Origin: a virus
Reading direction: 5' to 3' (one strand)
DNA length: 28,924 nt
IMG/VR virus record: IMGVR_UViG_3300035034_003813
Span: 1-28,924 of that record
Shown: piece by piece, positions 1,836-17,963 of the stretch
Position numbering within the stretch: the first letter of the stretch is position 1
Layout of the letters: each line of letters starts with the position of its first letter
The notes under the pieces: generated by a model
Seen by the model: only the letters and a program-made list of their open reading frames with translations
Told to the model about the DNA's origin: nothing
Database searches by the model: none
Translations under genes and position numbers: made by a program

Positions 1836-2486
1836 ATGTCAGAAGAAAAGAACATCACAGAAGAATCCATCAAAGTAGCCATTAAAGATTTTAATGCCCA
1901 TTTTAAATCAAAGGAAAAAGAAGAGATTTCCATTGAAGGAATTGAAGGCGTTGAAGCTCAGATTCAGGTATTTCTTGTGCCTGTTTTGGAAGAAATTGAA
2001 AACGGTACTGCTGCTGAACTTCCGGAAAAAGTAATTGAACTTTATAATCAGATAGCAGAAGACGAAGAAGAACCTGAAGAACCTAAAAAGAAAAAGAAAG
2101 AACCCAAAGAAAAGAAACCCAGAAAAGAAATTGAAAAAGATGCTTACGGTGTATCCATGAACAGTGGAGCACACAAACTCAATCTGATGCTGGAAAAAGG
2201 AGCTTCAATTGCTGATATGATTGATGGAGTAGGTACTACTCGCAGTAGAGTTCAATCACACATGGCTTCTTTGAAAACCAAGGGTTTCTTTATTAATAAT
2301 ATTGATGGGGTTTTTACTGTTATGTCTGAAGAACCCCCGGAAAGACTTAAAAAAGAAAAAGTTGACGGTGCCAAAGAAGGAGAAAAAACTGAAAAGAAAA
2401 AAGCTCCTGCTAAAAAATCATCTTCCAAAAAATCATCTTCCAAAAAATCATCTTCCAAAAAATCATCTTCCAAAAAAGGAAAATAA
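1836..2486 (+). CDS. Putative winged-helix DNA-binding protein with a histone-like Lys/Ser tail
   Basis: This 216-aa protein has an acidic helical N-terminus (about 1-80), a charged linker rich in EEPEEPKKKKKEPKEKK, then a compact domain at about 103-165 (AYGVSMNSGAHKLNLMLEKG, ASIADMIDGV, SRVQSHMASLKTKGFF, FTVMSEE) with the helix-turn-helix plus beta-wing pattern of small phage DNA-binding domains. The C-terminus is a lysine/serine tail with KKSSS repeated four times, like histone H1 or bacterial H1-like tails. It has its own consensus promoter and a strong AAGGAG site, so it may be abundant. Nucleoid-type DNA binding or regulation is inferred; the family was not identified by name. The folE start follows 4 bases after its stop. 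Confidence 0.65.
   Translation: MSEEKNITEESIKVAIKDFNAHFKSKEKEEISIEGIEGVEAQIQVFLVPVLEEIENGTAAELPEKVIELYNQIAEDEEEPEEPKKKKKEPKEKKPRKEIEKDAYGVSMNSGAHKLNLMLEKGASIADMIDGVGTTRSRVQSHMASLKTKGFFINNIDGVFTVMSEEPPERLKKEKVDGAKEGEKTEKKKAPAKKSSSKKSSSKKSSSKKSSSKKGK
2412..2471. repeat. 15-bp tandem repeat, four exact copies, encoding KKSSS
   Basis: The unit AAAAAATCATCTTCC occurs four times in perfect register and is followed by a partial fifth A-tract. It codes for the Lys/Ser tail. Exact nucleotide identity among copies points to recent expansion by slippage, so copy number may vary between relatives. Confidence 0.9.
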
Positions 2487-2490
2487 AACT

Positions 2491-3063
2491 GTGACGGAAA
2501 TTCAAAAAGATTTCCATCACATTATATCTGAGGGATTGGGGCTCGATATGTCGGACCCCAATCTCAAAGACACTCCTAAGAGATTGGAAAAAATGTATAA
2601 AGATTTTGTCAAAAATACTGACAAACCTTTTAAAGGACTTACTGTTTTTCCAAACAGTGATGGATATGATCAAATAATTCTATTGGATACCATTCATTTC
2701 ACTTCTATATGTTCTCATCATTTTATACCTTTTGCTGGTAAAGCCTGGTTTGCTTATATTCCGGATGAATTATTATTAGGGGCCTCTAAACCGGCAAGAG
2801 TGATAGAACATTATGCAGCAAGACCTCAACTACAAGAAAACCTTTGTCAACAGGTTGTTAAATTTATTAGCAAACAACTTAAACCATTAGGAATTATGCT
2901 TGTAATGAGAGCAATACACGGTTGTATGTCTTGTCGTGGAATTTATCAATATCACGGAGCCGGAATGATGACTTCTTCTATTACCGGTATTTTCAAAGAA
3001 AACAAAGCACCTCATGATGAAGTTATGGATTTGATAAAAATGTCAATAATGATGGAAAAATGA
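2491..3063 (+). CDS. folE: GTP cyclohydrolase I (FolE)
   Basis: FolE turns GTP into 7,8-dihydroneopterin triphosphate, the entry step for both folate and 7-deazaguanines. The zinc-site motif SICSHHFIPF (Cys74, His76, His77) and the second ligand motif HGCMSCRG (Cys144) are intact, along with IEHYAARPQLQE. I place the start at the GTG at 2491, ten bases after AAGGA and 4 bases after the preceding stop. This gives 190 aa and keeps the N-terminal TEIQ helix. The frame stays open upstream to a TTG at 2302, but that part overlaps the previous gene out of frame and encodes only its repeat shadow. The stop overlaps the next ATG, so translation is coupled to the QueD-like gene. Confidence 0.93.
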   Translation: MTEIQKDFHHIISEGLGLDMSDPNLKDTPKRLEKMYKDFVKNTDKPFKGLTVFPNSDGYDQIILLDTIHFTSICSHHFIPFAGKAWFAYIPDELLLGASKPARVIEHYAARPQLQENLCQQVVKFISKQLKPLGIMLVMRAIHGCMSCRGIYQYHGAGMMTSSITGIFKENKAPHDEVMDLIKMSIMMEK

Positions 3064-3398
3064 AAACAATGAATATAATTATTAATACTCGATTTTCAGC
3101 TATTCATTTTTGGCCTGATTGTCCTATAAAGGAAGTTGCTTATCTTAGAAATCCTCATAGACATGAATTTCATGTTCAAGTAAAAGCTCCAGTAAAACAT
3201 GGTGATAGGGATATTGAATTTATCCAATTAAAAAACAAGATTCAACTGTGGATTTCTAAGAATTGGGATAAACAAAATCTTGAAAACAAATCCTGTGAAA
3301 ATATGTGTTCTCTATTACTGTTTGTTTTTCCTGAATTATCTTATGTTCGGGTTTTGGAAGACGGAGAAAATGGCGCAGAAATAGAGAAACCTAAATAA
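3060..3398 (+). CDS. Divergent QueD/PTPS-fold protein, second copy in the cluster
   Basis: This 112-aa protein follows the QueD plan: FSAIH (His16) and PHRHEFH (His33, His35) reproduce the three zinc histidines, DIEFIQLKN matches the IDFGELK element, KSCENM stands where PTAENM normally is, and the C-terminal strand reads VRVLEDGENGAEI, keeping the substrate-type Glu. The Asp-His catalytic dyad is not visible, and the only nearby Cys (Cys21) is 12 residues before the first His of HxH instead of 4. It is therefore unlikely to be a plain duplicate of QueD. It may act on another pterin or deazaguanine intermediate, or be structural. It overlaps the folE stop by ATGA. Confidence 0.7.
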   Translation: MKTMNIIINTRFSAIHFWPDCPIKEVAYLRNPHRHEFHVQVKAPVKHGDRDIEFIQLKNKIQLWISKNWDKQNLENKSCENMCSLLLFVFPELSYVRVLEDGENGAEIEKPK

Positions 3399-5482: not shown

Positions 5483-7375
5483 ATGAGAAGTATTTTTGTT
5501 GATTCAGGTGCTCACTCTCTATATACCAAATATGTTATCAATCGACAACATGTGAATGGTTATTCTTTTTATGAATCTGACGCATTTTGGAATTATGTTG
5601 ATCAATATGCAGAATGGGTAAAGCAAAGACTTCATTTGATTGATGTTTATGTAAATGTGGATGTTATTTTCAATCCTGAATTAAGTTGGAAAACCCTCAA
5701 ATATTTAGAAAATACTCACGACTTAAATCCATTACCTGTTATTCATGCCAATACTGATAAAAAATGGTTATACAAACATCTTGATAATTATGAATACTTA
5801 GGAATAGGAGGCGTAGGTCAAGAGAAAACAGTAAAAGAATTTCTTCCTTTTGGAGATATGGTATTTAATGCTATTACTGACACAAAAGGATATCCTACAC
5901 ATAAAACACATGGTTTTGCTATGACTTCTAATTTTCTATTAAATCGTTTTCCTTGGTATTGCATGACCGAAGAAGACCATGAAGTTCTTACTAAAAAAGG
6001 TTGGAAAAAGAGAAGCAAACTACAGATAGGAGAAGAAATATTAGCATTTGATGAAGGAGTAACCAAATGGGAACCTATTTTAGATATTCCAGTATTCCCA
6101 GTAAAAAATGAAAAAATAACCCATATTGAAAACCGAAATATTGATGCTCATATTTCAAATAATCATAGGTGGATAACAACCGACCATAATAAAAGAGGAT
6201 TAAAATGGAGATTTAAAGAAACTGATTATTTAACAAAAAGTGATGCTATTCCAAGGGTAGGTAAAGATTATAAATTTCCAACTGAAAAAAAATATTCAGA
6301 TGAGCAAGTTAAATTATTAGGATGGATTTGGACAGATGGGTCTATGAGAGACAGATCTAAAAAAGGATGCAAATTCAACAGCATAATTATATACCAATCT
6401 AAAACAGCTAATCCTAAAAAATGTAAAGAAATTGAAACCCTTTTAAATAAAAGTAAAGAAAAATACTGTATTTGTAAAGGGGAATGTGGAATGAACAATT
6501 ATGAGATATATGGTAATATTTCTAAATGGATATGGTCTCTAGCTCCTGATAAAAAAATACCTTTACCTTTTATTTTTGATTTAACAAAAGACCAATTAAA
6601 AATGTTTATAGATGCTTCTATAAAAGGAGATGGAACTTTAACAAAATTAATTAGAAGAAAAGGAATAGAAATTACAGTAAATAGATCTGTTAAAAAAGAA
6701 AATTTAGAAATTTTACGCATAGGTTATTTATTATTAGGTATTCCTACTTCTATTTTTTACGGTAAAAATAATAAAAAAAGTCTGCGTACTTCCTCAGTAG
6801 ATTATATCTATAATAATCAAACAAGACATTGGATTGAGAACTATACTGGTAATTTGTGGTGTGTAAAAGTTAAAAGTGGAGCTTTTTTTACAAGATGTAA
6901 TGAAAAAATTTATGTAACAGGAAATTCAGTTGATTCCACAGCTTGGGCCCACTTCGGAAGATTTGGAGCTATATTGATACCTAAGTTAAAAAACGGAAAA
7001 TATGATTACAAAACTACACCTATTATTCTTTTTATTTCTGATCGGTCAACAAAAAAAGATTTAGCAGGAAAACATTTAGATAATTTTTCCAAAATTGAAA
7101 GAAAAATGATCCTAAAATACATTAAAGATAAGGGATATATTTTAGGAAAATCTGAATACAAAAAAGTTCCATTAGATTATAAAGTTACTCCAGGTAAAGA
7201 ATTTAGAATTTCAAAACACAAAAACCATACACTAATCGAAAACTGTATTGAAAAAGGTGTAAAAAATAACAACCTAATGAGGGATTTTTTCAATGCAGAA
7301 TACTACAAAGATTTAGCTAATTCTTTACCTGAATGGCCTTGGAAGTTCAAACACAAAGAAAGGACATTATTTTAA
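5483..7375 (+). CDS. dpdA: DNA 7-deazaguanine transglycosylase DpdA, intein-interrupted
   Basis: Phage DpdA swaps guanine in DNA for a 7-deazaguanine base and belongs to the TGT superfamily. The N-extein (1-159) has FVDSGAHSLYTK, DVYVNVDVIFNPE, LNPLPVIHA, YEYLGIGGVG and HGFAMTSNFLLNRFPWY. The C-extein (482-630) begins SVDSTAWAHFGRFGA. Joined, they restore the PWY-SVDST-W-GRFG run that I associate with phage TGT/DpdA proteins, giving a 308-aa mature enzyme. Residues 160-481 are an intein. The AGGA site lies close before the ATG. Its partners queD, queE and folE lie upstream. Its substrate may be CDG, since no queC is seen. The assignment of the family is strong; the exact base is inferred. Confidence 0.85.
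   Translation: MRSIFVDSGAHSLYTKYVINRQHVNGYSFYESDAFWNYVDQYAEWVKQRLHLIDVYVNVDVIFNPELSWKTLKYLENTHDLNPLPVIHANTDKKWLYKHLDNYEYLGIGGVGQEKTVKEFLPFGDMVFNAITDTKGYPTHKTHGFAMTSNFLLNRFPWYCMTEEDHEVLTKKGWKKRSKLQIGEEILAFDEGVTKWEPILDIPVFPVKNEKITHIENRNIDAHISNNHRWITTDHNKRGLKWRFKETDYLTKSDAIPRVGKDYKFPTEKKYSDEQVKLLGWIWTDGSMRDRSKKGCKFNSIIIYQSKTANPKKCKEIETLLNKSKEKYCICKGECGMNNYEIYGNISKWIWSLAPDKKIPLPFIFDLTKDQLKMFIDASIKGDGTLTKLIRRKGIEITVNRSVKKENLEILRIGYLLLGIPTSIFYGKNNKKSLRTSSVDYIYNNQTRHWIENYTGNLWCVKVKSGAFFTRCNEKIYVTGNSVDSTAWAHFGRFGAILIPKLKNGKYDYKTTPIILFISDRSTKKDLAGKHLDNFSKIERKMILKYIKDKGYILGKSEYKKVPLDYKVTPGKEFRISKHKNHTLIENCIEKGVKNNNLMRDFFNAEYYKDLANSLPEWPWKFKHKERTLF
5960..6925 (+). mobile_element. Intein with LAGLIDADG endonuclease inside DpdA (322 aa)
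   Basis: The element starts at Cys160 (CMTEEDHEVLTKKGWK, block A) and ends with VYVTG-type block F/G (EKIYVTGN) at Asn481, followed by Ser482 as the +1 nucleophile. Block B is seen as HISNNHRW. The two LAGLIDADG helices are LLGWIWTDGS (278-287) and FIDASIKGDGT (375-385), so the homing endonuclease looks intact. The penultimate residue is Gly rather than the usual His, a variant also found in active inteins. The insertion sits at the most conserved extein motif (WY/SVDS), as is typical of inteins. Confidence 0.9.
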
Positions 7376-7376
7376 A

Positions 7377-7682
7377 ATGAAGCTATATTTAGCAGGTAAT
7401 TTTACTGTTACAGATGAGGTTCAAAATGAAGTTGCTTTAGAAAAAACAATGAAAGAAGATTATAATCGCCTTTGCACATTTTTTTATCCTAAAGCTGCTG
7501 ATGTTGTAATCCAAAATAAAAAACCAAAAATCAAAAAAGAAGTAGAAATTAAAGAAAAAGATTTATCCTTAAAAACACACCCAGCAATAGGAGAAGTTAG
7601 TAATGGCAAAGAAGATAAAACTAAAGAAAAAAACACCAAAAAAAGAGTTAAAGTTACAATCAAAAGAAGCAAAAATTTATGA
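7377..7682 (+). CDS. Hypothetical protein, 101 aa, overlapping the clamp gene
   Basis: The N-terminus MKLYLAGNFTVT and the NRLCTFFYPKAADVVI segment look like a small folded domain. The remaining half is a lysine/glutamate-rich tail that overlaps the start of the sliding-clamp gene by 80 bases in another frame. The family is not recognised. KLYLAGNF resembles the first strand and loop of nucleotide-binding folds, but the rest of such a fold is missing. It begins 1 base after the dpdA stop, so it may be coupled to dpdA translation and could be an accessory of the modification system. Confidence 0.55.
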   Translation: MKLYLAGNFTVTDEVQNEVALEKTMKEDYNRLCTFFYPKAADVVIQNKKPKIKKEVEIKEKDLSLKTHPAIGEVSNGKEDKTKEKNTKKRVKVTIKRSKNL

Positions 7683-8730
7683 TAAAGGAAAAACTTTAAA
7701 AATTCTTTCAGCCATTAAACCAGGATTAGCTATGAAAGATATTGTTGAAGGAATGAAAAATTTCTACTTTGATGGTAAGAATATAATTACCTATAATGAC
7801 AAAGTATCAATAATGCATCCTTTTGTAACTGATTTCAAATCATTTATTCATGCCGAAACTTTTTATAAATTGATCAGCAAGCTTCCTTCTGATCAATTTA
7901 AAATGTCACCTATAACTGATGCCCAAATAAAAATTGAATCAAAGGGTGTTGATGTGACTTTAGTGGCTATAACAGATTCAGAAATTATTAAACGAATTTC
8001 GGTTGTAAATAAAGGGATTAAAAAAGTAGAATGGAAGAAGCTTCCTAAAAATTTCATAGAAAGTATAAATCTTTGTTCTTTTGCTGCTTCGAAATCTGAT
8101 ACTGATTCCACTATTTCTTGCATTAGATTAATAAACAAAACCTGTGTAGCTACAGATAAGAAAAGAATAGCATACGCAAAATTAAAATCAAAAATTGAAC
8201 CTATGTTCATTAAAGCAAGCGAAGTGAAACATCTTCTTGGAATAGAACCTACTAATTATGGAAGTAACAAAGGGTGGTTATTTTTCAAAAACAAAGATGG
8301 ATGTGTTTTTTCAATTCGAAAAATAGAAGGAAATTTTCCTAAATGGAAACATCTTTTTGATTTTGAAGGATCAAAAGTTGATTTGCCGTCTGAACTTTTA
8401 AATGGTATAGATCTTGCTTCTGTTTTTACTAATGATGGCAATGCTCCTCCTTTAAAAATTAAGATTGAAAAAAATCTTTGTAAATTAGAAGTCCAAACCG
8501 ATGAAGGCAAACTAAAATATTCTGCACCAGTTGATTACAACTTAGATTTGATTGATTTTACAATAAATCCAGATTTTCTAAAAGAAATGATTAAGTTCGC
8601 CACCACAATAACTTTTGTTGAGGGTAAGGCAAAGCTTGAGACAAAAACCTTTGCTGTTTTAACTGCTTTTTTCTCTAAAGATGAAGACGCAGGAGAAAGA
8701 TATACTCGTTACGGTAAAAAGGAAAAATAA
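7603..8730 (+). CDS. dnaN: DNA polymerase sliding clamp, DnaN-like beta subunit
   Basis: This 375-aa protein has the size and repeated-domain pattern of bacterial-type beta clamps. The best local signal is TCVATDKKRIAYAKL, matching the conserved ATD-RLA element at the domain 2 edge, followed by IKASEVKHLLG, CVFSIRKIEGNFPKW (compare IEGxFPdy) and a third domain ending TAFFSKDEDAGERYTRYGKK. A basic N-terminal extension (MAKKIKLKKKTPKKELK) precedes the fold. It would encircle DNA and tether the polymerase encoded downstream, loaded by the DnaX-like protein. A GGAG site precedes the ATG; the first 80 bases overlap the previous gene. Confidence 0.85.
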   Translation: MAKKIKLKKKTPKKELKLQSKEAKIYDKGKTLKILSAIKPGLAMKDIVEGMKNFYFDGKNIITYNDKVSIMHPFVTDFKSFIHAETFYKLISKLPSDQFKMSPITDAQIKIESKGVDVTLVAITDSEIIKRISVVNKGIKKVEWKKLPKNFIESINLCSFAASKSDTDSTISCIRLINKTCVATDKKRIAYAKLKSKIEPMFIKASEVKHLLGIEPTNYGSNKGWLFFKNKDGCVFSIRKIEGNFPKWKHLFDFEGSKVDLPSELLNGIDLASVFTNDGNAPPLKIKIEKNLCKLEVQTDEGKLKYSAPVDYNLDLIDFTINPDFLKEMIKFATTITFVEGKAKLETKTFAVLTAFFSKDEDAGERYTRYGKKEK

Positions 8731-8731
8731 A

Positions 8732-8929
8732 ATGGACGAACAAGACAACAGAAAACCTGATTGGGTTAAATATTATCAAGTTACCAATTATGAATGGGAT
8801 TGCCCCTCGTGTAACTACACAAATGTAAACACCCAAGACCCTACAGGTAGAGTTTTAAGATGTTTTAAATGCGGTTCACATTTTGATCACGTACGGGATG
8901 GGGGATATTTAGAAAAAGGAAACTATTGA
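8732..8929 (+). CDS. Small zinc-ribbon protein, 65 aa
   Basis: Two cysteine pairs (CPSC in YEWDCPSCNYTN and CFKC in LRCFKCGSHF) 21 residues apart form a classic zinc ribbon, with a basic-aromatic lead-in (KPDWVKYYQV). The start is the ATG at 8732, 1 base after the clamp gene stop and with an AAAAGG site. An upstream in-frame ATG at 8681 lies within the clamp gene and is less likely. Its stop overlaps the TTG/ATG region of the polymerase gene. It may be a small DNA- or protein-binding cofactor of the replisome; the function is unknown. Confidence 0.75.
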   Translation: MDEQDNRKPDWVKYYQVTNYEWDCPSCNYTNVNTQDPTGRVLRCFKCGSHFDHVRDGGYLEKGNY

Positions 8930-8931
8930 AT

Positions 8932-11580
8932 ATGAGTTTGTTTTCGAAGTCTGAGATTAAAAAAACCTGTGAAATAAAAACAGACATTTCTGAATTGAAA
9001 TCGGATTGTTTGAAATGCGGTTTATATAAAAATAAGAATCATCCTCAAATAGAATATGAAGGAGAAGGGAGAAGGAAAATACTCATTATCGGGGAAGGGG
9101 CAACCTTAGATGATGAGTTATACGGAACACCTTTCAGTGGAGAAGAAGGAGAATTGCTTGAAAAAAAACTTCGATTCACAGGAATAAATTTACACAGAGA
9201 TTGCTGGAGAATGAAAGCAGTTAGGTGTGAAACTTACAAACCTACTTATAATCAAATTAGAGCCTGTTATCCTTTTGTCAAAAAAACAATTCTGACTTTA
9301 AAGCCTTCCCTTGTGATTCTTTTAGGTTCCACTCCTATTGCTTCTTTATTTGGTCAAGATTTTTCTAATAGAGAGATCGAAAGATGGAGAGGTTATCTGA
9401 TTCCTGATCAAGAATTACAATGTAATGCTTTTCCACTAAATCCAATAATTGATCTCATAGATGATCCAAAGAACAAAAATCTTAAAAGTCTATTTGAACG
9501 AGATTTACAAAACGCCATTGATAGCCTAAACCAGCCGTTTATTAAGCAAACAGATCATGAGCAGTACATTACTATACTTAAAGATTTCAAAGCTCTTAAA
9601 TCGACATTATTAAAGGTAATAAAAAAACAACCCTTAATTACTTATGACTATGAAACTACAGGTTTAAAACCTTTTAAAAACGGACATAAAATTGTCACCA
9701 TAAGTTTTTCTGTGAATGAGAAAAAAGCTTTTTCATTTCCTTATCAATATCGAGATTTCTGGACAAAACAAGAACAAAAAGAAATAAGGCTTCTCTGGCG
9801 AAAAATTTTAAAAATTCCTAAGATAAAAAAGATAGCGCAAAACTCCAAGTACGAAGAAATCTGGGGAAAAGTTTTCTTTAAAAAGAGACATAAATGGCAT
9901 TTTGATACTATGATGTGTGCCCATATTCTTGATAATAGACAAGGCATAAGTGGTTTAAAATTTCTTGCATTTGTAAATTTTGGAGTTAGGCCGTATGATA
10001 AAGATATTAAACCTTTTCTAAAATCAAAGGGTGAATTTAACTCAATAGAAAAATTTCCTTTGAATGATGCATTAATGTATAATGGATTAGATTGTATCTA
10101 TACTCATATGCTCTACAATAAACAAATCCAAATAATCACCAAACAAAGAGGATTACTTCAAGCTTACAATTTCTTTATGAAAGGCAATAAAGAAATGGCT
10201 ACCTTGCAATTAAATGGTTTTTGTATGAATACAAAATACTACAAAATAACAAGGAGGAAACTTGAAAAGAAAATTGCCCAATTAGAAAAAGAATTATTAA
10301 CAGGTCGAGAAGCAAGAGCATTTAAAAAACAGTATGGAAAGCCTTTGCTTTTGACCTCAAATCAAGACTTAGGTAATCTTTTTTATGAAGTTCTTGGAAA
10401 AGATCCAGTTTTCACATCAAAAGACAATTATAAAACAGATAAGGAAACACTTGAAAAACTAAATTTACCTTTTGTGAAGAAACTCCTCATCAAAAAAAAA
10501 TATGAAAAAGCCTTAGGTACTTATTTAGGTCAATTTGAAAGAGAAATCGTAAGAAAAAAATTACATCCGTTCTTTGATTTAATTATTCCTATTTCTTATA
10601 GATCAAGTAGTTCTGGACCTAACTTCCAAAACCAACCTAAACGAGACGAAGAAATTAAAATTTTAGTGCGATCAGGAATAATTCCAAGAAAAGGTTGTGC
10701 TATATCAGAAACAGACTTTTCCGGAGCAGAAGTTATAGCCTCAGCATCTTGCCATAAAGATCCAAATTTTATAGCATATTTAAAAGACAAATCTACCGAC
10801 ATGCATAGAGACAATGCAACTGACCTTTTATTATTGCCTCCTGATATGTTAGAACGGCCAGACTACACTAAAAAACAGAAAAAATTAATTAAAATTATTA
10901 GATTCTTTGCAAAAAATAATTGGACCTTTGCACAATTTTATGGTGATTGGTTCGGATCATGCGCGCCTGTCTTTTGGGCCAACGTAGTTGAAGCAGGATT
11001 AAAATTACCTAATGGTCAGACTTGTAAAGAATGGTTAGAATCTAAAGGTATTATTGAATTAGGTGAAATGGAGAATGGTCGTCCTACTCCTGGTAGTTTT
11101 CTTGAACATTGTAAAGAAGTAGAAGACAAAATGTGGAATAAAAGATTTCCACAATATACACAATGGAAAAAGAATATCATTGAATTTTATCAAAAGTATG
11201 GATATATAGAAAGTTTATTTGGATTCAAATTTACCGGATATATGTCTAATAATCAGTGTAATAATTTTCCTATTCAATCTGCAAGTTTTCATCTGCTTCT
11301 CTATACTTTGGTTCAAGTGCAAAAAATGATCAAAAGGAAAAAATTAAAAACAAAACTTATTGGTCAAATACATGATTCAATTATTGCAGATGTTCCTAAA
11401 GAGGAATTAAAACTTTATCATAGAGAAGTGCATAAAATAGTCTCAGGTTTAAAGGATAAGTTTGATTGGTTAGTGGTTCCTATGGGAATAGAAGTTGAAC
11501 TTTCTAAACTCCGAGAGGATGGAGGAAGCTTGGCAGAAATGCAAGAAGTTGATCCATTGAATGTTGAACTTTGGAATTAA
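8932..11580 (+). CDS. polA: Uracil-DNA glycosylase (family 4-like)/3'-5' exonuclease/family A DNA polymerase fusion
   Basis: This is the replicative polymerase, about 882 aa. Domain 1 (about 25-180) is family 4 UDG-like: CLKC, GEGATLDDELYGTPFSGEEG, KAVRCE, RACYPF and VILLGSTPIA; all four Fe-S-type cysteines are present. Domain 2 is the DEDD exonuclease: TYDYETTGLKP, AQNSKYEEIW (exo II Asp replaced by Glu) and YNGLDCIYT. Domain 3 is Pol I: motif A ETDFSGAEV, motif B RFFAKNNWTFAQFYG, motif C QIHDSIIADV. I choose the ATG at 8932; a TTG at 8926 is better spaced (5 bases) from AAGGA and adds two residues. A comparable fusion is known from phage SPO1. Confidence 0.93.
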   Translation: MSLFSKSEIKKTCEIKTDISELKSDCLKCGLYKNKNHPQIEYEGEGRRKILIIGEGATLDDELYGTPFSGEEGELLEKKLRFTGINLHRDCWRMKAVRCETYKPTYNQIRACYPFVKKTILTLKPSLVILLGSTPIASLFGQDFSNREIERWRGYLIPDQELQCNAFPLNPIIDLIDDPKNKNLKSLFERDLQNAIDSLNQPFIKQTDHEQYITILKDFKALKSTLLKVIKKQPLITYDYETTGLKPFKNGHKIVTISFSVNEKKAFSFPYQYRDFWTKQEQKEIRLLWRKILKIPKIKKIAQNSKYEEIWGKVFFKKRHKWHFDTMMCAHILDNRQGISGLKFLAFVNFGVRPYDKDIKPFLKSKGEFNSIEKFPLNDALMYNGLDCIYTHMLYNKQIQIITKQRGLLQAYNFFMKGNKEMATLQLNGFCMNTKYYKITRRKLEKKIAQLEKELLTGREARAFKKQYGKPLLLTSNQDLGNLFYEVLGKDPVFTSKDNYKTDKETLEKLNLPFVKKLLIKKKYEKALGTYLGQFEREIVRKKLHPFFDLIIPISYRSSSSGPNFQNQPKRDEEIKILVRSGIIPRKGCAISETDFSGAEVIASASCHKDPNFIAYLKDKSTDMHRDNATDLLLLPPDMLERPDYTKKQKKLIKIIRFFAKNNWTFAQFYGDWFGSCAPVFWANVVEAGLKLPNGQTCKEWLESKGIIELGEMENGRPTPGSFLEHCKEVEDKMWNKRFPQYTQWKKNIIEFYQKYGYIESLFGFKFTGYMSNNQCNNFPIQSASFHLLLYTLVQVQKMIKRKKLKTKLIGQIHDSIIADVPKEELKLYHREVHKIVSGLKDKFDWLVVPMGIEVELSKLREDGGSLAEMQEVDPLNVELWN

Positions 11581-14799: not shown

Positions 14800-17226
14800 A
14801 TGGCCAAAAAGATAAAAATCAAACCTATTAAAAAAATTATAAGTACTGCTGATTCTTTTGAAGCCATGATGGATGAAGAAGAGGTTGTTGATCCTGAATT
14901 TATTGATGTTAATAATTTAGTTCCAATGGGATCAACAACCGGTCATCTTGAATGTTCTGGTAATTGGCAAGGAGCTTTTAACTTAGGAAAAATGATTAAT
15001 TTAATAGGTGATTCTCACGCAGGTAAATGTATTAAAAATTCATATATTTTAACTTCAAAAGGAATGGAGTTAATAGATGATATAGGTAAAAATAAAAAAG
15101 AGGGGATAAGCCCTTATATTGAAACTTTATCTATAGATAAAAACCGAAAAGACGTAACCTCACTTTTTTGGAAAGAAAAAGTCTCTAAGACAATAAAAAT
15201 TATCACTAAAAAAGGATATTCTATTGAAGGAACTCTAGATCATCCTATTATGATAATGAATAAAAATTTCCAATTCAAAATGCGTAAATTACAAGATATT
15301 AAAAAAGACGATTGTGCTATAATAGCAAGAGGTACTAATAATTTTACGGAAGAATATTTTCCTATTAAAAATATAAATTTATCTGAAACTAATGTAAAGA
15401 AAGCAAATATTCCTAAATTTATAAACGAATCTTTTGCTAGATTATTAGGTTATATTGTAGCAGATGGAAATATATACCCTAATACTATTTTTCTTTCTAC
15501 TACTAAATCTTATATTAGGGAAGATTTAAGCACAATAGCATCTAATTTAAATATATCTTTAAAACAACAATCTATAGGAGGAAAACATTTAGCTACTGTT
15601 ATTGCTAATTTATTTGATAATCCTGATAAATTTACAGCAAGGTATAAATTTGTTCCAGAATGTATTTTAAAATCACCTAAAAATATTCAAACTTCTTTTT
15701 TAAAAGCTTTAATAGATTGTGATGGGTATGGAACTAAAACACAAATAAGTTATTATACTGCATCGAAACAATTAGCAAAACAAGTCCATTTAATGCTCTT
15801 AAATTTAGGTATAATTTCTACTTTATCTTTTAAAAATGGTGCTTTTGACGGAGTAAATTATCATGATCATATTTATTGGGCTGTAAATATTTATGGAGAT
15901 GAACTAATTCTTTATAATAATTTAATCGGAAGTTCTAAATATAATGAATTTTTAAAACGAAAAAATACTCAAAGAAATAGTGATTATGATTCAATACCAA
16001 ATTTAATTAAAAAAATGAAAGGAGATATTGAAAAATTAAGGAAAAAAGTAGGATGGTCTAAAAACGGAAAATGTACAAATGATCCAAGACGTTTTCCGAG
16101 AATAAAATTTGCAAATACTGAAAATGGCTCAAAAAAAATGATTAAACGATTTATTGAATTATTTTTAGAATGGCCTATTGATTTATCTTTTTATAACACA
16201 ATTCTTTCATCAGGATATTGTTTTGATTCAATTTCGATTATTGAAGAAAAGATAAATCAAACAATAGTTTATGATGTTCATATTCCAAATTCACATTTAT
16301 TTTGGAGTAATGGGTTTATAAGTCATAATACCTTATTAGCTTTTACTATATTTGCGGAATGTAATAAGTTAAAAAGATTTGATGATTACCTTTTTAAATA
16401 TGATGATGTAGAAGCAGCAAATGAGTTTAATATTTCCCTTCTGTTTGGTTCACAATGCGCTAATAGGATAGATCAAACTGAACGAAGCAGGACTATTGAA
16501 GATTTTAATGATCGAATTGCTTCTCTTTTGGATGAAGGAGAACCTTTTATTTATGTGCTTGATTCATTCGATGGATTAACTAGTGAAGCTGCTATTAAAA
16601 AAGATATCGAAAATCGTAAAAAAAGAGAAAAAGGAAATGAAACAACAGGTGATTTTGGTGACGGCAAAGCTAAAATCTTTTCAAGATTCTGCTCTATGAG
16701 AATACAAGAATTAAAAGATACTAATTCCCTTCTTATTATTATTTCACAAACAAGAGATAACATAGGTTTCGGTGCTCAATTTACTCCAAAAACAAGATCA
16801 GGAGGAAGGGCATTAAAATTTTACTCAGCTTTTGAAATATGGTTAGCATGTCAGAAAAAAGAGAAAAAGGGCAAAAGAACCATCATTACTAATGTTCAAG
16901 GTAAAATAACTAAAAACAAGTTAACTGGTAAGCATGGTGAATTTTACTTTCCTATTCTTAATGATTACGGAATAGATAACATAAAGTCTTGTATCAATTT
17001 TTTGATGGATGAAGGGGATTGGACAGGAACTAAAAAAGCAGTAAACACAAAAGGTTTCTTAGAGTTAAAAGATTCTAAAGGTAAAAAGAAACACCCATCT
17101 GTCAAAGAACTTATTGATTATATTGAAGAGGAAAATAAAGAAGTCAGTTTGTATAAACTGTGCAAAAAAGCATATGATGATGTAATGGAAAGTTTAAAAC
17201 CAGAACGTAAACCAAAATATGAATAA
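14800..17226 (+). CDS. RecA/UvsX-family recombinase, intein-interrupted
   Basis: The spliced product is about 374 aa. Walker A GDSHAGK (70-76) is split from its Thr (511) by a 434-residue intein. After it come TLLAFTIFAECNK, Walker B FIYVLDSFDGL, SLLIIISQTRDNIG and the L2/Gly-rich segment KTRSGGRALKFYSAFEIWL, as in UvsX and RecA. It catalyses strand exchange on DNA coated by the gp32-like protein. The N-terminus MAKKIKIKPIKK is basic and shared with two other genes here. TAAGGA precedes the ATG. No stop codons or frame breaks are seen, so splicing should give an active enzyme. Confidence 0.9.
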   Translation: MAKKIKIKPIKKIISTADSFEAMMDEEEVVDPEFIDVNNLVPMGSTTGHLECSGNWQGAFNLGKMINLIGDSHAGKCIKNSYILTSKGMELIDDIGKNKKEGISPYIETLSIDKNRKDVTSLFWKEKVSKTIKIITKKGYSIEGTLDHPIMIMNKNFQFKMRKLQDIKKDDCAIIARGTNNFTEEYFPIKNINLSETNVKKANIPKFINESFARLLGYIVADGNIYPNTIFLSTTKSYIREDLSTIASNLNISLKQQSIGGKHLATVIANLFDNPDKFTARYKFVPECILKSPKNIQTSFLKALIDCDGYGTKTQISYYTASKQLAKQVHLMLLNLGIISTLSFKNGAFDGVNYHDHIYWAVNIYGDELILYNNLIGSSKYNEFLKRKNTQRNSDYDSIPNLIKKMKGDIEKLRKKVGWSKNGKCTNDPRRFPRIKFANTENGSKKMIKRFIELFLEWPIDLSFYNTILSSGYCFDSISIIEEKINQTIVYDVHIPNSHLFWSNGFISHNTLLAFTIFAECNKLKRFDDYLFKYDDVEAANEFNISLLFGSQCANRIDQTERSRTIEDFNDRIASLLDEGEPFIYVLDSFDGLTSEAAIKKDIENRKKREKGNETTGDFGDGKAKIFSRFCSMRIQELKDTNSLLIIISQTRDNIGFGAQFTPKTRSGGRALKFYSAFEIWLACQKKEKKGKRTIITNVQGKITKNKLTGKHGEFYFPILNDYGIDNIKSCINFLMDEGDWTGTKKAVNTKGFLELKDSKGKKKHPSVKELIDYIEEENKEVSLYKLCKKAYDDVMESLKPERKPKYE
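15028..16329 (+). mobile_element. Intein with LAGLIDADG endonuclease inside the recombinase P-loop (434 aa)
   Basis: The intein begins at Cys77 (CIKNSYILTSKGMELI, block A) right after the P-loop Lys, has block B GTLDHPIMI, and ends NGFISHN (Ser508-His509-Asn510) before Thr511, a textbook His-Asn/Thr junction. Both endonuclease helices are present: LLGYIVADGN (215-224) and ALIDCDGYG (303-311). The insertion inside Walker A makes the unspliced protein ATPase-dead. P-loop insertion is a known hot spot for inteins in RecA-like and other ATPase genes. Confidence 0.93.
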
Positions 17227-17237
17227 GGAGATTTACC

Positions 17238-17963
17238 ATGGCGAAAAAAATCAAAACTATAACTTCGACAAAGGCAGACATTATTGATTTTGACCCTAAA
17301 CCTCGTATTAGAGTTTCTTTTTCAAAAACAATACAAGTTGGCGGAGAAGAATGGAACAAAGCAGAAGCCGGAATGGATTATTCGATTCCATCTTTAGAGC
17401 AGGCAGAAAAAACATTTGAAGAACTATGGGAACTTTGCGGTACTCAAGTAGAAAGTCTTTTAGGAGATTCACACGAGGATCCTGAAGATGATGATCCTGA
17501 AGATGATGATCCTGAAGAAGATGATCCTGAAGAAGATGAAGAAGAAGATGATCCTGAAGAAGATGAAGAAGAAGATGAAGAAGAAGATGATTCCGATGAA
17601 GATGAAGAAGAAGATGATTCCGATGAAGATGAAGAAGATGAAGAAGATGATCCTGAAGAAGAAGAAGAAGATGATCCTGAAGAAGATGAAGAAGATGAAG
17701 AAGAAGATGATCCTGAAGAAGAAGATGATTCCGATGAAGATGAAGAAGATGAAGAAGAAGATCCTGAAGAAGAAGAACTTTCTGAGGATGAAATTAATGA
17801 AATGTCTTCGAAGGAATTAAGAGAACTATGTGAAACAGCAGAAGGTTTAGAAGGTATAGACCACACACAAAAAATAAAAACTTTACGAAAAGAAATTATC
17901 GCCTGCCTTTTTGCTGAAGAGGAAGAAGATACTGACTGGGAAAACACAGACTGGGAAGAATAA
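17238..17963 (+). CDS. Extremely acidic Asp/Glu-repeat protein, 241 aa
   Basis: Residues 1-78 form a small basic-to-neutral domain (MAKKIKTITSTKAD, RIRVSFSKTIQVGGEEWNKA). Residues 79-180 are almost only Asp and Glu with regular Pro and Ser (DDPEED, DDSDEDEE). Residues 181-222 look like a SAP/HeH-type helix-extended-loop-helix (INEMSSKELRELCE, KIKTLRKEIIACLF). The tail is DTDWENTDWEE. The acidic block could mimic DNA or act as a chaperone for DNA-binding proteins. It directly follows the recombinase and ends at a strong terminator. The family was not recognised; SAP-like is a cautious reading. Confidence 0.75.
   Translation: MAKKIKTITSTKADIIDFDPKPRIRVSFSKTIQVGGEEWNKAEAGMDYSIPSLEQAEKTFEELWELCGTQVESLLGDSHEDPEDDDPEDDDPEEDDPEEDEEEDDPEEDEEEDEEEDDSDEDEEEDDSDEDEEDEEDDPEEEEEDDPEEDEEDEEEDDPEEEDDSDEDEEDEEEDPEEEELSEDEINEMSSKELRELCETAEGLEGIDHTQKIKTLRKEIIACLFAEEEEDTDWENTDWEE
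17475..17785. repeat. Low-complexity GAT/GAA repeat coding the acidic block
   Basis: Imperfect units such as GATGATCCTGAAGAAGAT and GATGATTCCGATGAAGAT recur throughout. They generate long false ORFs in other frames, including a Ser-rich one on the - strand. Repeat number is expected to vary between relatives by slippage. Confidence 0.9.

Follow-up and report, generated by a model that had tools for sequence, protein, structure and literature searches.

A LAGLIDADG intein family occupies one fixed site in the phage DNA-modification enzyme DpdA and moves horizontally

DpdA is an enzyme of the tRNA-guanine transglycosylase (TGT) fold that replaces guanines of DNA by 7-deazaguanine bases. The 28,924-nucleotide stretch of viral DNA analysed here, referred to throughout as the window, carries a dpdA reading frame of 630 codons (5483 to 7375, plus strand). 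The same strand encodes QueD of the 7-deazaguanine pathway (PTPS family, 416 to 775; PF01242, E 1.8e-33), a radical SAM protein that we call QueE-like from its context (950 to 1600; PF04055, E 7.6e-16), the GTP cyclohydrolase I FolE (2302 to 3063; PF01227, E 1.6e-46), whose true start is probably downstream of the TTG, and a DNA polymerase sliding clamp (7603 to 8730; phrog_947, E 2.6e-28), which lies downstream of dpdA in synteny with phage 9g. The gene order folE, dpdA, clamp, polymerase resembles that of phage 9g and Vibrio phages. Directly after folE, a second PTPS/QueD-like ORF (3060 to 3398) matches PF01242 with an E value of 0.0021, below the cut-off, and the family A DNA polymerase (8926 to 11580) shares a single ORF with a 3'-5' exonuclease domain and, at the N-terminus, a domain of the uracil-DNA-glycosylase superfamily. 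QueC was found neither in G001, the 29.6 kb contig of a near-identical twin of the window (L001), nor in G009, the 63 kb contig of the nearest intein-free relative (L012); in these two cases, the base may be made short of preQ0, or QueC may lie outside the fragments. Five other contigs with an intein-bearing DpdA do contain QueC.

The dpdA product consists of two DpdA segments separated by an insert at residues 160 to 481. The N-terminal segment (N-extein, 159 residues, 5483 to 5959), recognized by PHROG_887 and by alignment with phage 9g DpdA, contains the DSGA motif and an HGF motif with the DpdA-specific His143, and ends in FPWY. The C-terminal segment (C-extein, 149 residues and the stop codon, 6926 to 7375) opens with the +1 Ser (6926 to 6928), followed two residues later by an invariant Asp (6932 to 6934). 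In a PHROG scan of the whole protein, PHROG_887 (queuine tRNA-ribosyltransferase) matched extein sequence only (residues 3 to 159, E 1.5e-28), and joining the exteins in silico yields a DpdA of 308 residues. Both PHROG_887 and the alignments assign this protein to the sequence family of phage 9g DpdA, and not to DpdA2. The 9g enzyme, which has no intein, is about 30% identical to the window exteins, shares the DSGA and S(V/C)DS motifs as well as the DpdA-specific His196, the counterpart of His143, and is likewise adjoined by folE/queD genes and the polymerase clamp. In an alignment of 60 DpdAs, this His, the +1 Ser and the Asp were invariant in every sequence. Knowledge of the enzyme family, together with this conservation, suggests that the Asp, residue 484 of the precursor, is the probable TGT nucleophile. 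One intein-bearing DpdA (L099, from 4952) has SADTASG where the others have SVDSTSW, thus keeping the Asp and losing the Trp.

To the structural model of the intein-free homologue L012 (mean pLDDT 93), Foldseek returned a weak TGT match, and a later structure comparison matched the model to TGTs and to the DpdA crystal structure 7ui4 with a Z score of about 13 (12.9 for 7ui4), the TGT fold being common to both. A sequence search of the PDB with a DpdA profile gave no match. At three other loci, adjacent ORF pairs both match DpdA and are possibly tandem paralogues (L084, 2877 to 4816; L082, 1935 to 3805; L032, 2863 to 4437). By its likeness to 9g DpdA, the window enzyme is predicted to insert a 7-deazaguanine base into DNA; the phage 9g enzyme puts preQ0 into DNA, and such bases shield phage DNA from restriction (PMC6884629).

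The original prediction had placed at 5960 to 6925 a 322-residue intein with Cys1, a block B His, two LAGLIDADG helices and a Gly-Asn/Ser junction; the coordinates proved exact, and all of these features are present. Alignment, intein-free homologues and a structural model delineate, on the plus strand, a HINT splicing domain that is split by a LAGLIDADG endonuclease. The insert starts with Cys1 at the N-terminal splice junction (5960 to 5962), followed by block B with His69 and Trp71 (NNHRW, 6164 to 6172). The two LAGLIDADG helices, LLGWIWTDGSM (6314 to 6346) and FIDASIKGDGT (6605 to 6637), were located by alignment and by the match of the model to I-DmoI, and each carries an acidic residue (WTDG and GDG). 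Block F comprises Trp300-Cys301 (6857 to 6862), with Cys301 at the position of the class 3 nucleophile (PMC7891396), and block G, Thr320-Gly321-Asn322 (6917 to 6925; Asn codon 6923 to 6925), forms the C-terminal splice junction. When the inteins at this site from nine different viruses, described below, were aligned, Cys1, His69, Trp71, Trp300, Cys301, Thr320, Gly321 and Asn322 were all invariant. In the model of the precursor (mean pLDDT 88; pTM 0.56, the relative orientation of the domains being uncertain), the HINT domain and the endonuclease fall exactly within the insert. Residues 161 to 481 match the TliVMA intein (Z 18.8), showing a HINT fold with both ends of the insert together, the HINT part matches the class 3 intein AceL NrdHF (Z 17.6, rmsd 2.0), and residues 269 to 441 match I-DmoI (Z 14.5). 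These data support the assignment of the insert as an intein with an endonuclease domain, located between Tyr159 and Ser482 of DpdA. Because Pfam finds nothing in the precursor, and the intein alone stays below the curated cut-off (LAGLIDADG_3, E 0.043), routine annotation would miss it.

An open reading frame through 322 extra residues would equally be expected of a normal additional domain of DpdA, and this reading draws on nothing beyond the open frame. We therefore turn to the relatives, for which the original prediction had called for intein-less dpdA genes and had named homologues carrying the block as a normal domain as the outcome that would speak against an intein. The opposite was found: about 60 DpdA homologues, coliphage 9g among them, lack the 322-residue block and read straight through PWY/SVDSTSW (the slash marks the insertion point), confirming a clean site. 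In the DpdAs of coliphage 9g and of Vibrio, Edwardsiella, Achromobacter, Aminobacter, Sulfitobacter and Mycobacterium phages, both flanks align with nothing between them, and dozens of relatives from viral contigs, up to 50% identical (L012), show PWY/SVDSTSW or close variants. The clearest case is the intein-bearing L098, whose extein is 86% identical to that of the intein-free L033. Compared to L033 and its kin, with about 77 to 79% DNA identity on each side, L098 carries a clean insertion of 960 nucleotides at the codon boundary. The insertion site itself is invariant, two residues ahead of the invariant Asp. As the block is absent from about 60 homologues, occurs sporadically in the DpdA tree, has a history in conflict with that of its host protein (see below) and possesses an intein fold with splice residues, we rejected the normal domain, the probability of which we consider practically negligible.

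Searches that used first the intein and next alignments built from its relatives revealed inserts at the same site and the same codon boundary at L092, L093, L097, L098, L099, L100/L101, L102 and L131. The DpdA intein thus occupies an identical site in at least nine different viruses, the window and eight more, with the window and its twin L001, which has the same intein, counted as one of the nine. The other eight inteins are 41 to 56% identical to that of the window, and the exteins of these carriers are 33 to 38% identical to the window exteins (seven cases measured). A search for other types of intein at the DpdA junction added L131, which belongs to the same family; the other pattern matches that we read lay in other genes. 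Among GenBank phages, we did not find the DpdA intein, but only remote inteins in other genes with at most 27% identity. Likewise, it was not found in GTDB genomes, an intein search of bacteria and archaea giving one remote match of 23% identity. Between the window and L001, we counted no substitutions in the intein and 24 elsewhere, a difference that is not significant (p 0.054). The two sequences are nearly identical apart from a 30-nucleotide indel and a cluster of substitutions around 2092, in a Lys/Glu-rich ORF (1836 to 2486) whose C-terminal tail is repetitive.

On a tree of 60 DpdAs, the presence of the intein requires at least seven changes, close to the mean of 7.7 obtained with shuffled labels, and the starred branches force five; in these counts, gain and loss are not separable. 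Moreover, for eight loci, the topologies of intein and extein reject each other in AU tests (p 0.0008 on the extein alignment, 0.0004 on the intein alignment). L098 illustrates the conflict: its nearest extein is that of the intein-free L033, and its nearest intein is that of L097 (85% identical), the exteins of L097 and L098 being 63% identical. A comparison of L097 with L098, aimed at dating the transfer, found synonymous sites near saturation. Given the conflict between the trees, and an occupied site in L098 next to an empty one in its close relative L033, the intein moves horizontally into one fixed site of DpdA. This movement suggests that the endonuclease is probably active. It would cut the intein-free dpdA of co-infecting phages at the conserved PWY/SVDS codons, and repair of the cut allele would copy the intein in. 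We are highly confident in the account as a whole, namely that a mobile LAGLIDADG intein resides in phage DpdA, splices to leave an enzyme of 308 residues and homes into intein-free dpdA.

The penultimate Gly, in place of the usual His, had been regarded as an unusual splice-site variant in the original prediction. This view did not hold up, since a (T/S)GN end is common among phage inteins, occurring in portal, polymerase, terminase, methylase, metallophosphoesterase and RDF proteins. As judged from these sequences, the Gly is a trait of a broad phage intein family and not a rarity. The Bethlehem RDF intein splices well with its native penultimate Gly, and more slowly once this residue is replaced by His (PMC5050341). 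For sequence comparison with the RDF family, we used Switzer gp53, the homologue of Bethlehem gp51, whose alignment to the DpdA inteins spans almost their full length (E down to 8e-20). This mycobacteriophage RDF/metallophosphoesterase intein shares with the DpdA intein Cys1, a LAGLIDADG endonuclease, the block F Cys and the TGN/S end, but differs in its host protein, has Val for the block B Trp and is about 23% identical. The phage DNA methylase inteins (PMC9957025; Bobi gp73) are similar in belonging to the same broad family, residing in a phage DNA-modifying enzyme and moving horizontally, whereas their host is a methyltransferase, their site is another and their identity is about 25%. The AceL NrdHF class 3 split intein (6zgq) also lacks the penultimate and block F His and has the Cys and Thr of the triplet; in contrast to the DpdA intein, it is split, has no endonuclease, and carries Glu1 for Cys1 and Met for the triplet Trp.

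By analogy to the related RDF intein, which has been shown to splice, the HINT domain of the window DpdA would excise itself after translation and join the exteins to the 308-residue enzyme. The first acyl shift would involve either Cys1, by the class 1 route that we favour, or the internal Cys301, by the class 3 route. Transfer to Ser+1 would follow, then cyclisation of Asn322, unaided by a penultimate His, and finally ligation. Since the penultimate and block F His are both absent, Asn cyclisation should need another helper. The three residues of the class 3 triplet in blocks B, F and G (positions as in PMC7891396) are present as Trp71, Cys301 and Thr320, a combination with Cys1 that the original prediction had overlooked. 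Their invariance across the nine DpdA inteins is consistent with an attack of Cys301 on the N-terminal scissile bond that leaves Cys1 dispensable, as is the fact that the profile-nearest solved intein is the class 3 AceL NrdHF (E 0.0025), whose HINT part superimposes at an rmsd of 2.0 and which lacks both C-terminal His residues as well. However, the class 3 rule specifies that there is no Cys at the N-terminal intein position (PMC7891396), and Cys1 is as invariant in the nine DpdA inteins as the triplet is. We thus set class 3 membership aside, the triplet being complete yet Cys1 present. Furthermore, Cys1 and the block F Cys persist in family members that lack the Trp, and also in the RDF intein, which is treated as class 1 (PMC5050341). 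For these reasons, we favour class 1, consider the class 3 route a doubtful though serious possibility, and file the DpdA intein, on its sequence motifs, as one with apparent class 1 termini and a class 3-like triplet. Cys1 together with the HRW, WC and TGN blocks is also found in inteins of other phage genes (L132, around 3001; L137, around 3001; L109, 1501 to 2523), the combination therefore being wider than DpdA.

The two missing helper His residues could also mark a degenerate intein that has lost splicing and left the window dpdA inactive. Such decay is very improbable in our view, because the remaining splice residues are intact and invariant across nine viruses, the exteins are open and conserved, and the sequence is related to a splicing-competent intein family. 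A precursor that has yet to splice is a different matter: the insert splits the segment that holds the invariant Asp, a probable catalytic residue, and DpdA is therefore very probably inactive before splicing. With the insertion only two residues before this Asp, the intein might have been retained as a regulator of DpdA, DNA modification being delayed or conditional until splicing occurs; the original prediction had raised such conditional modification, and conditional splicing has been documented for certain other inteins, such as the mycobacterial DnaB intein (PMC6195587). On the other hand, selfish homing accounts in full for the patchy presence, the conflicting trees and an endonuclease that appears intact, and most related phages lack the intein. 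A regulatory role, plausible in itself, is thus not needed for the pattern, for which a selfish homing element suffices, and we consider retention as a regulator improbable. Slightly less probable still is a hybrid intein, with Cys1 and a full class 3 triplet, that gates DNA modification by condition-responsive splicing and has an endonuclease adapted to 7-deazaguanine-modified dpdA, spreading only among modifying phages.

Consistent with the original prediction, which knew of no inteins in DpdA, we found none described for DpdA, tRNA-ribosyltransferase or queuosine-enzyme hosts in the open-licence literature; a report outside these papers may exist. Phage DNA methylases are already known to host inteins (PMC9957025), and a DNA-modifying enzyme as host is therefore not new in itself. 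DpdA, in turn, seems to be new both as an intein host and as a site: in divergent phages, members of a mobile intein family reside at one fixed position. Through the product of the invaded gene, phage DNA withstands many restriction nucleases. Because the target is a DNA-modification gene, a phage offering it may also carry modified DNA, and whether homing endonucleases cut 7-deazaguanine-modified DNA becomes a testable question. In addition, Cys1 combined with Trp-Cys-Thr falls outside the published class 3 sequence rule and may help to relate class 1 and class 3 splicing.

The window also contains a second intein of 434 residues (15028 to 16329, within the ORF 14800 to 17226), which sits in the P-loop of a UvsX/RecA-like recombinase (GDSHAGK/C ... 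SHN/T), has a canonical Cys1 and penultimate His, and matches Pfam Intein_splicing with an E value of 7.9e-14. The ORF adjoining the recombinase gene downstream (17238 to 17963) encodes long acidic repeats (EEDDPEE and similar).
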